A DNA stretch of 24,345 nt from positions 1-24,345 of the forward strand of contig CAAFRY010000123.1 of assembly GCA_900765525.1 (NCBI GenBank), read 5' to 3'. A program made the position numbers and the translations under genes. Below, one piece after another: positions 5,570-24,345 of this stretch. The DNA is from an uncultured Blautia sp. (GTDB lineage Bacteria; Bacillota; Clostridia; Lachnospirales; Lachnospiraceae). Under the pieces are notes generated by a model. The model saw only the letters and a list, made by a program, of their open reading frames with translations. It was not told the DNA's origin and searched no databases. The first letter of the stretch is position 1, and each line of letters starts with the position of its first letter.

Positions 5570-7012
5570 ATGAAAGGCAGAGAAACCAGGAGCAGAGAAA
5601 TGAACGGCAGAGAAGCAAGAGACGGAGAAATGCGGGATAGAGAAGCGAGGGACGGAGAAATACGGGACGGGGAAGCAAGAGACGGAGAAATAAGGGGAAG
5701 AGAAGTAAGAGACAGAGAAATAAGGAGTAGAGAAGCAAGAGATGGAGAAATACGGGACAGGGAAGCAAGGCACAGAGAAATAAGCGGCGGCAGACAGTAC
5801 CGCTTTATGGAGAACTTTGCCTATAGCAGAGAGGCGGGCACCAAGGGTGAGGAGCAGGCAGCCAAAAGAATCTGCAGGGAATTGGAGGAAATGGGACTGC
5901 ATCCGAAAATAGAACCCTTTTCCTTTGAGACCTTCCGTGTAGCCGAAGAAAGTCTGAAGGCTTTGGAACCTTATGAAAAAGAATATCCGGTAAGGGCATA
6001 TCTGAACACTTCAAACACAAAGCCTGAAGGACTTACAGGAGAGTTTTTGTACGGAGAAAACGGGGATGAAATAAGCCTTTCCCTGGCAGAGAATAAAATC
6101 CTGCTTTTAAATGGCACGGTGCGCAGAGATATGTATGAGAAGCTGAAAAAAGCAGGAGCTTTAGGCTTCCTTACCCTCTGGGGAGGCCCGCTGGATGAAG
6201 GGGAAGATAAGGCACCTCAGCCTCAGACTCTGAGAGGAGTCAGGAATCCTCAGCTTCCGGGCGCCTGTATCCACTATAATGATGCCAGGGAACTGGTAGA
6301 AAAAGGTGCAAAAAGGCTGAAGCTGGCCATTATCCAGGAAAAGCAGGAGCAAATTTCTCATAATGTGCGGGTTTCTATACCTGGTACAGACAAGAGCCAG
6401 GAGATTCTTACCCTTACCGCTCATTATGATTCTGTTCCCCAGGGGCCGGGGGCTTACGATAATATGGCAGGATGTGCCATTATCATGGAGCTGTGCCGGT
6501 ATTTTGCAAAGCACAGGCCCCGGAGGACCATGGAGTTTATCTGGTTTGGAGCAGAGGAAAAAGGACTCTTAGGAAGTCTGGCCTATACGGAACAGCACCG
6601 GGAAGAATTGAAATTTCATAAGTTTAACATGAATGTAGACTTGGCAGGGCAGCTCATAGGCGGAAATGTCATAGGCGTTACAGGAGACAAAAAAATCTGC
6701 GGCATGATTTTAGATATGGTAAGAGAGGAAAACATCGGAGTTTCTTTTAAAAACCAGATATGGGGAAGCGACTCCAACACCTTTGCATGGAAAGGCATCC
6801 CTGCTATGACTCTAAACCGGGACGGCTTTGGTATGCATACCAGACATGATACCCTGGAGATGATTTCTCCCTGGTCTTTGGAGAGAAGCGCAAGGCTTTT
6901 GTGCTGCCTGGCAGATAAACTGGGCAACATAGAAGAAATTCCCTTTCCCAGGGATATTCCCCAGGAGATGAGGGATGAGCTGGAGAAATATTTTGAGGAT
7001 ATGGTATGCTGA
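5570..7012 (+). CDS. M28-family metallopeptidase with charged repeat N-terminus
   Basis: This 480-aa protein has an apparently complete two-metal M28 site: H285 and D287 in AHYDS, D297 in YDNMAG, E329/E330 in FGAEEKG, D357 in NVDLAG and H423 in GMHTRHDT. The family mostly comprises aminopeptidases, and the M28 domain begins near residue 80 (MENFAYSREAGTKGEEQAA). Residues 4-73 are 14 tandem pentapeptides. I kept the ATG at 5570 because GGGAGAGGAAG lies just upstream and overlaps the end of the previous gene; the internal Met at 5807 has no visible ribosome binding site. No signal peptide is seen. It probably trims peptides released by the upstream transglutaminase-fold protein. It is the last gene of the operon. 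Confidence 0.88.
   Translation: MKGRETRSREMNGREARDGEMRDREARDGEIRDGEARDGEIRGREVRDREIRSREARDGEIRDREARHREISGGRQYRFMENFAYSREAGTKGEEQAAKRICRELEEMGLHPKIEPFSFETFRVAEESLKALEPYEKEYPVRAYLNTSNTKPEGLTGEFLYGENGDEISLSLAENKILLLNGTVRRDMYEKLKKAGALGFLTLWGGPLDEGEDKAPQPQTLRGVRNPQLPGACIHYNDARELVEKGAKRLKLAIIQEKQEQISHNVRVSIPGTDKSQEILTLTAHYDSVPQGPGAYDNMAGCAIIMELCRYFAKHRPRRTMEFIWFGAEEKGLLGSLAYTEQHREELKFHKFNMNVDLAGQLIGGNVIGVTGDKKICGMILDMVREENIGVSFKNQIWGSDSNTFAWKGIPAMTLNRDGFGMHTRHDTLEMISPWSLERSARLLCCLADKLGNIEEIPFPRDIPQEMRDELEKYFEDMVC
5579..5788 (+). repeat. In-frame 15-bp tandem repeat (14 pentapeptide units)
   Basis: Fourteen 15-bp units encode [R/G]-E-[A/I/M/V/T]-R-[D/S/G] pentads such as REARD and GEIRD. The A-type and I-type units often alternate, giving a 30-bp higher-order period. 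Because the unit is a multiple of three, gain or loss of copies would keep the M28 reading frame. The encoded stretch is almost entirely Arg, Glu, Asp and Gly, and could form a long charged helix. Confidence 0.9.
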
Positions 7013-21748: not shown

Positions 21749-21958
21749 CTATTTTTCTTTATACTCGGAAATCAGTTCCTCTGTCAAATACTCATCGCTC
21801 ATACAGTGCAAATCAGATACTCCTTCACTGATTAGACGATAAATGGTTGAGCGATAGAAAAAGTTCAGGGCATCATCCAAGGACAGGTTTTCTTTTTTCG
21901 AAAATTGCTGGATAATTCGGGCATATTTTTTTTGTAATAAAATAGGATTGGCGGTCAA
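21749..21958 (-). CDS. Small helical protein, DUF3791-like, third gene of triad
   Basis: This 69-aa protein has a predicted all-helical fold with LLQKKYARIIQQFSKKENLSLDDALNFFYRS, then LISEGVSDLHCMSDEYLTEELI. It resembles small DUF3791-type proteins that accompany DUF3990 genes. It starts with TTG that overlaps the TGA stop of the DUF3990-like gene (TTGA); GAGGGGAG lies 9 nt upstream inside that gene, supporting the unusual start. No catalytic motif is visible. It probably binds or regulates the DUF3990-like partner, by analogy with toxin-antitoxin gene pairs; this is inference. Confidence 0.75.
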   Translation of the reverse strand: MTANPILLQKKYARIIQQFSKKENLSLDDALNFFYRSTIYRLISEGVSDLHCMSDEYLTEELISEYKEK

Positions 21959-22428
21959 AGCTGTTCACTCCCCTCATAGTGCAGATATTCATCAAGAGCT
22001 TTCTGTGTTCGGAAACATATTTGTAAGTTGGGCTTTTCATAGCGCAGGCGGCGAATAGCTTCGCCTTTGTCAATCAGATTATCAAAGTAAAGCTCAACGG
22101 TATTAAATACCTTATCGTTGGCGACACCGCCAATCACTATATCATAATCTGTTGTATCATTTCCGGTTCTGCATTTCAAAATAAAGTCGAGCCATTCTTC
22201 AGAATAGCTTTCAAATCTCAAAATCTTGAGTTCCTGATAAGCCTTTTCATCAAAACTGTAACGAGAAACAATTCTGTTTTTGCCACGACGCTTGAATTTT
22301 TCACACCACTTTACTGCCTGATTGTAAAGCGGTGTTGTGTAAAAGCCACGTCCAAAATCGACATTTTCTCTGGAATGTAATAAATCCGGAATTTGAATCT
22401 CCAGATAGGAGCCATGATATAAAATCAT
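21955..22428 (-). CDS. DUF3990-like protein, probable ADP-ribosyltransferase fold
   Basis: This 157-aa protein begins MILYHGS, continues with FGRGFYTT (residues 25-32), and has DYDIVIGGVANDKVF followed by NTVELY. These blocks are typical of DUF3990. H5, Y30 and E112 could form an H-Y-E triad like that of ADP-ribosyltransferases, to which I recall this family being assigned. The start overlaps the stop of the upstream small gene (ATGA), and its own stop overlaps the next start. This arrangement suggests tightly linked production of three proteins, one of which could be a toxic enzyme. The cellular target is unknown. Confidence 0.82.
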   Translation of the reverse strand: MILYHGSYLEIQIPDLLHSRENVDFGRGFYTTPLYNQAVKWCEKFKRRGKNRIVSRYSFDEKAYQELKILRFESYSEEWLDFILKCRTGNDTTDYDIVIGGVANDKVFNTVELYFDNLIDKGEAIRRLRYEKPNLQICFRTQKALDEYLHYEGSEQL

Positions 22429-22664
22429 AATTGGATACCCCTTTCTTCCATTAAGCTGATAATATCATCTACGATATAGTCCTTACTTTGGGTATGAAGC
22501 ATCTCATATTCTGGTATAATATAGTTACTCAAAATATCGCTTTTTTCAGTCAGCGCCTGATAAATTTCTTCGGCATTTTTTCCCAGTCTAATGGCAATAT
22601 TTTCAATACAGAATACAGCAAACTCCAGTTCGTCTGTATTTGTTATTTTGGCGTTATCCCCCAT
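22425..22664 (-). CDS. DUF3791-like small protein, first gene of triad
   Basis: This 79-aa protein contains LEFAVFCIENIAIRLGKNAEEIYQALTEKSDILSNYIIPEYEMLHTQSKDYIVDDIISLMEERG, which I recognise as DUF3791-like. I chose ATG 22664 rather than the in-frame ATG at 22688, because AGGAGGTG lies 8 nt before 22664 and would fall inside the longer reading. It precedes and overlaps the DUF3990-like gene (ATGA). Being first and small, it fits an antitoxin or accessory position. It starts 31 nt after the DUF1349-like stop, so it may be co-transcribed with that gene. Confidence 0.82.
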   Translation of the reverse strand: MGDNAKITNTDELEFAVFCIENIAIRLGKNAEEIYQALTEKSDILSNYIIPEYEMLHTQSKDYIVDDIISLMEERGIQL

Positions 22665-22694
22665 CGCTGCAACACCTCCTGTCTGCATGAGAGT

Positions 22695-23375: not shown

Positions 23376-23410
23376 CCGGTGTACAAGGCGTTTGGCCCTT
23401 TGTACACTGG
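23376..23410. repeat. Dispersed repeat fragment forming a hairpin
   Basis: CCGGTGTACAAGG (23376-23388) pairs with CCTTTGTACACTGG (23397-23410) with one bulged base and the loop CGTTTGGC. Positions 23387-23409 repeat 158-180 with one mismatch. It lies in the 129-nt gap between the P-loop gene and the DUF1349-like gene. There is no T-run on either side, so terminator function is doubtful. Confidence 0.65.
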
Positions 23411-23423
23411 GGATAACATACAA

Positions 23424-24110
23424 TCAGTCTGTTTCATTTCCGCAATTAGTGAGATTGGAACCATTTTTAACAAGCCCAAAATGTTGCTCTACTTTTTCTA
23501 CGGTTTCATCAATTGTACTTTTTTGGGTTCTTTCAATCCAATAATAACCACTATTCTTAATATCCGTATATCTTTTTTGGTTCAAATCTTTCAAGGCCCC
23601 ATTGCATATTGCCTTTGCTTTTATGACATCAGACGCACTGTTTATAAAATCTCTAAATCCTTGATGGTCGGGGCGATTACAATAATCATCAACTAAATTC
23701 GAAGGTTCTTTTATCAAAAAAACTATTCTTGATGCTTCTGTTAATTGATTAGCTTCTTCCACGGTTAAATGGCAGTCACACAACAGGATTCTATTTTGTG
23801 AAAGACGAATCAAATCTAACAATACAAAATCTAATTGCTCCCTTGTGTTATCAATCAGCCATTTTTTATATTCCTCTACAGTACGTCCAAAAAATGCATC
23901 AGCATTTTTAAAGACTTTATTCATAGATGGTTGAAAAGCAAAATTTGAAATTTTTTGATGAATTGCGAACTGCTCATCTATATTATAAACTAATAAATTG
24001 TGGCGTTTCGCTAATTTGTGTGAAACAGTTGTCTTTCCACCGCAGGGAGTTCCGGTTATAAAATAAACATTTTTTAAATATTCACGGAGTACATTATCTT
24101 GAAATATCAT
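23424..24110 (-). CDS. P-loop kinase-like NTPase behind a leader-peptide attenuator
   Basis: This 228-aa protein has an N-terminal Walker A, GTPCGGKTT (residues 20-28), after a hydrophobic strand (NVYFIT), then LLVYNIDEQF. A middle strand, RILLCDCHLT, may be a Walker-B-like or kinase site, and SRIVFLIKEPSNLVDDYCNRPDHQGFRDF resembles a lid-region loop. The overall plan is that of small-molecule or nucleotide kinases; the substrate is not identifiable by eye. AAAGGAG precedes ATG 24110 by 8 nt. The upstream leader ORF and alternative hairpins suggest ribosome-dependent induction, as for some antibiotic resistance genes. An antibiotic-modifying phosphotransferase is one possibility; a housekeeping nucleotide kinase is another. 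Confidence 0.75.
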   Translation of the reverse strand: MIFQDNVLREYLKNVYFITGTPCGGKTTVSHKLAKRHNLLVYNIDEQFAIHQKISNFAFQPSMNKVFKNADAFFGRTVEEYKKWLIDNTREQLDFVLLDLIRLSQNRILLCDCHLTVEEANQLTEASRIVFLIKEPSNLVDDYCNRPDHQGFRDFINSASDVIKAKAICNGALKDLNQKRYTDIKNSGYYWIERTQKSTIDETVEKVEQHFGLVKNGSNLTNCGNETD

Positions 24111-24111
24111 T

Positions 24112-24184
24112 ACAAAATCTCCTTTATTAAATAGTTTTTAGCATTTTGTCTGTACATAAAACTATTTAATATAGCTTTATGTAC
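24112..24184 (-). promoter_or_regulatory. Candidate attenuator with mutually exclusive hairpins
   Basis: In the minus-strand RNA, 24184-24171 (GTACATAAAGCTAT) pairs with 24165-24152 (ATAGTTTTATGTAC) over 14 bp including one G-U; on the plus strand the same position would be an A-C mismatch. Overlapping the second arm, 24170-24158 (ATTAAATAGTTTT) pairs perfectly with 24138-24126, which abuts the AAAGGAG site at 24125-24119. A third possible helix is 24149-24143 with 24118-24112 (ACAAAAT/ATTTTGT), which flanks the site. No T-run follows any stem, so control would be at translation. Which state is ON is not clear from the sequence. Confidence 0.6.
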
Positions 24185-24217
24185 CTAGATATTTCTTAAT
24201 CGTAAAAATGCCACCAT
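24185..24217 (-). CDS. Putative 10-residue regulatory leader peptide MVAFLRLRNI
   Basis: ATG 24217 follows an AGAGGTG site by 6 nt and the ORF ends with TAG at 24185-24187, right where the attenuator stem begins. The peptide contains R6-L7-R8, matching the Arg/Lys-X-Arg/Lys pattern at which macrolide-bound ribosomes arrest in ErmDL-type leaders (which contain MRLR). The peptide's length, start signal, position and motif together suggest a stalling leader for the P-loop gene. No homologue was searched, so chance cannot be excluded. Confidence 0.55.
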   Translation of the reverse strand: MVAFLRLRNI

Positions 24218-24275
24218 ATTTTTCACCTCTCTAAATCCTAGTGTGCTGGCACGTTCATTTTCAGCATAATGACGT

Positions 24276-24345
24276 AGAATGAATTTTCATTCTGCAAGGC
24301 GGAGGAATGAGACGTAGCGGTGGCTACGTTGATTGACGACAACGC
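24276..24345. repeat. Dispersed hairpin repeat copy, cut by the window end
   Basis: AGAATGAA-TT-TTCATTCT (24276-24293) is a hairpin. It is followed by a core (24295-24344) aligning with 81-129 of the left repeat: CAAGGC, GAGGA, TGAG, stem, loop, stem and a TGA-AACG tail. The inner stem here is GACGTAGC/GCTACGTT (24311-24318 with 24323-24330), where the left copy has GGCGTAC/GTACGCC. The stem is thus preserved by paired changes. It has the same orientation as the left copy. Confidence 0.65.

Follow-up and report, generated by a model that had tools for sequence, protein, structure and literature searches.

Near the end of the window (the whole stretch of DNA analysed here, 24,345 nucleotides of contig CAAFRY010000123.1 from an uncultured Blautia sp.), a gene for a P-loop kinase-like protein is preceded by a ten-codon open reading frame and by several RNA segments that could pair with each other in more than one way. 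The locus therefore raises the question of whether these elements form a drug-responsive leader and, if so, through which RNA contacts such a leader would control a kinase-like gene. Our favored answer, to which we assign a probability of roughly two in three, is that a leader-peptide attenuator of the macrolide type (with a +X+ motif) controls translation of this kinase gene, which often encodes a kinase-acetyltransferase.

The leader and the kinase gene

All features concerned lie on the minus strand of the window and are given here from 5' to 3' of the RNA.

24223..24231, minus strand: Shine-Dalgarno (SD) sequence of the leader, GAGAGGTGA, identified by sequence
24185..24217, minus strand: leader reading frame MVAFLRLRNI followed by TAG (ATG at 24217, stop codon at 24187-24185)
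24188..24195, minus strand: arm 0, GAAATATC (also given as GAAAUAUC), inside leader codons 8-10; pairs with arm 4
24171..24184, minus strand: arm 1 of stem 1:2, GTACATAAAGCTAT, directly after the leader stop codon
24152..24165, minus strand: arm 2 of stem 1:2, ATAGTTTTATGTAC
24158..24170, minus strand: arm 2', ATTAAATAGTTTT, which overlaps arm 2 and has arm 3 as its alternative partner
24126..24138, minus strand: arm 3, AAAACTATTTAAT, abutting the kinase SD
24119..24125, minus strand: SD of the kinase gene, AAAGGAG, identified by sequence and conserved in the alignments
24101..24108, minus strand: arm 4, GATATTTC (also given as GAUAUUUC), spanning the start region of the gene between the G of the start codon and kinase codon 4
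23424..24110, minus strand: gene for the 228-amino-acid P-loop kinase-like protein (AAA_18, Pfam PF13238)

The +X+ motif of the window's leader is Arg6-Leu7-Arg8. An initial annotation of this DNA had described a ten-codon frame with its own SD that ends at a 14-bp stem, and its coordinates are right in the window sequence. Stem 1:2 indeed comprises 14 bp around a 5-nt loop and contains one G-U pair, so that it is perfect only as minus-strand RNA, as had been proposed. The second arm of this stem can alternatively pair next to the kinase SD, again as described, with full complementarity of arm 2' to arm 3 over 13 nt. Absent from that earlier model is a third helix, 0:4, in which arm 0 (24195-24188) pairs with arm 4 (24108-24101) over 8 bp.

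The leader and hairpin region folds better than shuffled sequences do (z -3.99, 0/200), and Rfam reported only tRNA in the window. Short reading frames with an SD and an [RK]L[RK] motif occur twice in the window versus 0.93 times on average across 30 simulated sequences, so the leader is unremarkable by count alone and its significance rests on conservation and on the covariation of three helices. A promoter-like site lies near the leader in 24 of 34 loci including the window, compared with a fraction of 0.35 by shuffling; the window's own site is weak.

The downstream protein matches the Pfam family PF13238 (AAA_18; E 3.2e-8) and has a Walker A P-loop, and its structural model (pLDDT 87.6) shows the fold of adenylate, gluconate, and shikimate kinases. 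The product is thus predicted to have a small-molecule-kinase fold, with putative kinase activity; by sequence, the PDB gave weak kinase matches at E 0.4 or more. A Pfam search up to E 0.1 returned AAA_18 and other P-loop models and no methyltransferase, in line with the earlier statement that the protein is not an Erm methylase. In many relatives, the kinase is fused to a C-terminal GNAT acetyltransferase domain that is missing from the reading frame in 14 of 36 relatives among those listed. The window has a remnant resembling the 3' end of a GNAT gene after the kinase domain (23380-23450), and the GNAT domain itself is absent. In another protein (P0057), the same kinase domain is joined to a glyoxalase/bleomycin-resistance domain in place of GNAT. 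The reading frame upstream of the leader had been considered as a GNAT tail and was rejected because it has no Pfam match and is absent in relatives, where the GNAT domain is C-terminal to the kinase and not upstream.

At the DNA level, no match was found in plasmids or phages, and none in viral contigs. At the protein level, the kinase had one plasmid match at 27% identity and no phage match, and searches of PHROGs and PADLOC up to E 0.001 gave no hit. The leader strings appeared in no paper of the open-licence PMC literature, and the gene was absent from titles and abstract starts on macrolide leaders, GNAT/P-loop kinase resistance, and macrolide kinases in the same literature, among the matches listed.

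Two further observations concern other parts of the window. Genes with DUF3990 and DUF3791 domains adjoin with a 4-base overlap at 21955-22688 on the minus strand and may be a system of their own. The reading frame at 5570-7012 opens with a repetitive charged stretch (5570-5790; GEIRDGEARDGEIR...) that is followed by a putative peptidase-like part.

Conservation of the leader and covariation of the helices

Scanning genomes with the kinase protein yielded 43 loci in Lachnospiraceae, Oscillospiraceae, Eubacteriaceae, and unclassified Clostridia (according to record titles and the tree), of which 39 include the kinase start and upstream DNA (L001, L034, L041, and L043 were left out because one or the other is missing). 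A leader with recognisable hairpin arms was present in 36 of these 39 close homologues, in 33 distinct versions. The typical leader reads M-x-x-F-L-R/K-L-R-N-I-stop, has its own SD, and lies directly before the kinase gene, with variants that include MVTFLKLRNI, MMMFLRLRNI, MVAFLRLKNI, and MVMFRKLRNI; most relatives show a purine-rich GGAGG-like stretch at the position of the leader SD. In nine loci, the leader start was set by hand to the ATG of the ten-codon leader.

The initial annotation had tied the leader to this gene and had counted homologues without it against its proposal. Such homologues exist, namely L006, L016, and L036 among the close ones, which are in no leader alignment, as well as 12 distant relatives (24-33% identity) in which the upstream DNA, examined in register, contains no comparable leader; the leader is nevertheless kept alongside the kinase gene in the other 36 of 39. 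The distant set consisted of 14 loci taken from 17 matches, and in L078 and L084 (short contigs) the upstream DNA was out of register. Several distant relatives hold unrelated short reading frames with [RK]x[RK]. From this distribution, the leader seems to belong to a single clade.

The DNA 5' of the leader is mostly unlike between loci by eye, except that it is common to the near-copies L007/L008/L010 and L009/L012 (L008, L010, and L012 duplicate other rows across the leader region and were dropped). No recurring neighbour gene was seen by eye in 15 of the 33 leader loci, with neighbours listed as reading frames. The locus L060 (genome G272) has kept the leader, arm 0, and arm 4 and has lost arms 1 and 2, with a leader frame that extends to 16 codons. 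One copy, L029:2886-3591, seems to be decaying: Its leader stop is shifted, its 0:4 pairing is partly broken, and its P-loop is altered.

Codon usage was counted in 38 distinct ten-codon leaders with [RK][NRS][IL] from codon 8 (excluding L020, L067, and L042). Codon 6 specifies Arg or Lys in 37 of them through AGA (12), CGA (13), CGT (4), CGG (1), AAA (4), and AAG (3), with Trp in L018 as the exception, and this constancy across six different codons points to selection on the +X+ motif at the level of the peptide. The view that R-L-R does not evolve neutrally is thereby borne out. Leu at codon 7 (35/38) and Phe at codon 4 (34/38) are also common and are encoded by varying synonymous codons; all 38 leaders have Arg or Lys at codon 8, but the motif by which the set was selected demanded this. 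At codons 9 and 10, the nucleotides themselves hardly vary (AAT in 37/38 and ATC in 35/38), as expected of arm 0. The leader of L020 has seven codons and no +X+ motif.

The register of the motif fits the macrolide-stall pattern to which it had been likened, as it is that of Arg6-Leu7-Arg8 in ErmDL. Telithromycin stalls the ribosome on ErmDL when Leu7 occupies the P site and Arg8 the A site, and Lys is the sole substitute for either Arg (PMC8298421). Stalling by erythromycin does not need the +X+ motif of ErmDL, and only Ser, Ala, and Gly at position 4 keep it at full strength (PMC8298421). By analogy, Phe at position 4 suggests that the inducer of our leader may be ketolide-like, tylosin-like, or another drug rather than erythromycin.

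Covariation was assessed in an alignment (A4) of 41 sequences that left out L060, where arms are missing, and L056, and dropped L035, which is part of another alignment (A2), as a copy of L030. Both stems of the initial annotation covary: Stem 1:2 is paired in 94.5% of cells with 47 double-change cells in 6 pairs, and stem 2:3 in 92.5% with 15 double-change cells in 7 pairs, with 0/500 shuffles reaching either cell count (kinship ignored). In an earlier 34-row alignment, stem 2:3 was weaker, and 77/500 shuffles reached its number of pairs and 5/500 its number of cells. The energy of the arm 2/arm 3 duplex has a median z of -4.3 over 42 sequences, and in 31 of these no more than 2 of 200 shuffles equalled it; the duplex is unremarkable in four of the 42 (L027, L032, L054, and L055), where 12 to 31 of 200 shuffles were as good. 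Across the alignments, no more than a few bases separate arm 3 from the kinase SD.

Helix 0:4 is paired in 98.2% of cells, with five double-change cells in three pairs and 0/500 shuffles (A4; kinship ignored), and sliding it by 1 to 3 columns lowers pairing to 14-63%. Its double changes occur in L020 together with L067, in L040, in L059, and in L032, and require four independent origins on a quick kinase tree (with partial or long rows for L040 and L032). The double changes of L040 and L059 are synonymous in leader and kinase alike. Arm 3 next to the SD had been taken as the main contact, and this part of the earlier model gives way to the start-codon helix 0:4 as the strongest candidate for the OFF contact.

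A link from this class of leader to a classical type of resistance gene came from a covariance model (R1) with which 397 genomes from one family and 295 from one order were searched. Strong matches in 12 and 3 genomes, respectively, were all located before the kinase. Weak matches (36-37 bits, E 0.007-0.009) were obtained in 5 and 4 genomes, with one genome, G299, having a strong and a weak one. The weakly matching loci (L062-L066 and L068-L071; nine genomes) share the leader MVTFMRLR-stop, are nearly identical across the stretch printed, and have the same downstream protein start as far as printed. This protein was typed in L065 (L065:1513-2452) and is of the RlmA type (PF21302, E 1.2e-12; PDB 1p91 RlmA, E 2.8e-28), with models of the G745/G748 23S rRNA methyltransferases below their cut-offs. 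No near-identical DNA of this locus was found in plasmids or phages, and its neighbours in L065 are presumably a recombinase end and mobile-element genes. The presence of a similar leader before an RlmA/TlrB-type 23S rRNA methyltransferase ties the leader class to macrolide resistance.

Predicted folding, proposed mechanism, and competing readings

The stalled state was modelled by masking the leader as far as 16 nt past the start of P-site codon 7 in 42 sequences, with L056 included and L035 and L060 left out. Under this mask, the predicted openness of the kinase start site rises from a median of 0.25 to 0.48 and is higher in 40 of 42 sequences, with part of the effect following from the mask itself. 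The gain comes largely from the removal of helix 0:4, for which the median probability without a ribosome is 0.81. When the ribosome is instead at the stop codon, arm 1 is covered too, the median probability of 2:3 is 0.99 (L027 excepted), and the start site has a median openness of 0.49 that is not separable from the stall. As start openness is equal at stall and stop, a separate role of 2:3 rests on the predicted openness of the SD, which is 0.57 in the stalled state versus 0.43 with the ribosome at the stop codon. SD openness shifts little between the states, the stall gives a mixed picture for 1:2 against 2:3 across sequences, and ON and OFF are not decided by folding alone. Without a ribosome, 1:2 has an intermediate probability (0.1 to 0.9) in 17 of 34 sequences.

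The prediction for helix 0:4 depends on how much coding sequence is included. In the window RNA, its probability is 0.97 when 14 nt of the gene are folded along but 0.04 at 25 nt, 0.32 at 40 nt, and 0.00 at 60 to 150 nt, and this loss with at least 60 nt is caused by a local hairpin in which early kinase codons pair with the SD. Across the 42 sequences, the probability exceeds 0.5 in 33 with 14 nt and in 25 with 60 nt. No terminator-like site was found on the minus strand at 23950-24345 of the window, and no U run after either hairpin was seen by eye in the alignments. Control of the kinase gene is therefore probably translational.

We propose that, without drug, ribosomes would finish the leader and leave, so that arm 0 could pair with arm 4 around stem 1:2 and hold the kinase start site closed. 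While a ribosome lingers on the leader stop codon, arms 0 and 1 would both be covered, and the 2:3 hairpin forming beside the SD would provide a further brake. In the presence of drug, the ribosome would stall when Leu7 occupies the P site and Arg8 the A site. The front edge of the stalled ribosome would then be at about the end of the leader, with arm 0 masked and arm 1 nearly free, so that stem 1:2 could form, arm 3 and the SD would be released, and the start codon would be open. We infer a macrolide as inducer, the position of the stall, the ON and OFF roles of 1:2 and 2:3, and a product that counteracts the drug; according to the folding models, the gate would open best with the ribosome at codon 7. 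Drug sensing by the leader is likely, and resistance conferred by the kinase gene is plausible. A far more specific version strikes us as possible yet doubtful. There, the gene would be translated only with a ribosome exactly at codon 7, being closed by 0:4 when the leader is empty and by 2:3 when a ribosome is at the stop codon, and its P-loop kinase/GNAT product would inactivate a macrolide-class drug while being unrelated to the macrolide-modifying enzyme Mph.

Part of this evidence would also suit the same drug sensing with a gate formed by the 1:2/2:3 switch alone, acting via SD access or mRNA stability, and with 0:4 as a secondary contact. Double-change cells are more numerous in these stems (47 and 15 versus 5 for 0:4), intermediate 1:2 probabilities in half of the 34 sequences are expected of a balanced switch, and arm 3 is only a few bases from the SD. 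However, a codon-7 stall leaves arm 1 almost untouched and thus does not by itself force the switch, and the frozen codons 9-10 and the covariation of arm 0 with the start codon region would go unexplained, so that we regard a gate of this kind as unlikely. We also consider it rather improbable that the leader senses another translation stress such as a shortage of Arg or Leu or a non-macrolide ribosome drug. In favor of such a sensor, HflXr with its RLR leader protects against lincomycin as well as erythromycin (PMC6310831), the toiL leader senses several drug classes (PMC12121999), and the kinase has no known macrolide link. It is opposed by the similar leader before a 23S rRNA methyltransferase of the tylosin-resistance type, and Lys at codon 6 in 7 of 38 leaders argues against Arg starvation in particular.

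Transcription attenuation as in mef(E) or hflXr, where stalling prevents a terminator, is how several RLR leaders work (PMC4335068, PMC6310831), but no terminator-like site was found on the minus strand at 23950-24345 and, by eye, no U run after the hairpins, and we view this mode as very improbable. Least credible of all is a coincidence, with the leader as the end of a coding frame from further upstream and the stems as ordinary inverted repeats. The upstream frame does read ...ENERASTLGFREVKNMVAFL, which resembles the end of a GNAT protein, and an SD with a short RLR frame is not rare by count. Yet this frame is not seen before other leaders and matches no Pfam model, whereas leader and helices are conserved without it, with codon conservation and covariation.

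Relation to known leader systems

Among these readings, translational control by a +X+ leader through helix 0:4 remains the one we prefer, and the locus is a variant of the known +X+ leader attenuators on a putative kinase gene; the arrangement is real, is conserved, and sheds light on mechanism. Should the leader respond to macrolides, then gut Lachnospiraceae and Oscillospiraceae harbor a drug-inducible determinant in which leader and gene form a unit in changing surroundings. As the leader names a likely inducer class, the substrate of an orphan kinase-acetyltransferase becomes directly testable. The overlap of the start-codon helix with the last leader codons accounts for the conservation of residues after the stall motif, and overlaps of this kind can be sought in other leaders.

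The closest parallels are ErmDL/ErmKL, Mef(E)L, and Msr(A)L, described as short leaders with Arg-Leu-Arg at codons 6-8 and hairpins before the gene, like ours (PMC4335068, PMC8298421); ErmDL (MTHSMRLR...) and Mef(E)L (MTASMRLR) have RLR at the same codons (PMC4335068). Compared with this group, our leader has an MVAFL N-terminus and two extra codons (N-I) that are part of an RNA arm, is without a terminator as far as found, and precedes a gene that is not a methylase, efflux, or ABC-F gene. The tlrB/yxjB (RlmAII) leader of Bacillus subtilis, MIIQFIRYR, shares the +X+ motif and is reported to stall on tylosin when the middle residue of the motif occupies the P site and its second Arg the A site, as part of translation attenuation (PMC6851288). 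It differs from ours in its downstream gene and in also having a terminator, an SD-sequestering hairpin, and NusG pausing (PMC6851288). The MVTFMRLR loci combine an RlmA-type gene as in tlrB with a leader like ours.

In Listeria, hflXr (rli80) resembles our locus in that a 14-amino-acid RLR leader and alternative RNA structures precede a non-classic resistance gene, but it is controlled by transcription attenuation and encodes a homologue of a ribosome-splitting factor (PMC6310831). The toiL upstream frame of topAI-yjhQ in E. coli is a sensor of ribosome-targeting drugs and offers a precedent, as a part of the leader frame has been predicted to base-pair with the ribosome-binding site downstream, yet it precedes another gene, and RLR has no occurrence in the main text of its description (PMC12121999).
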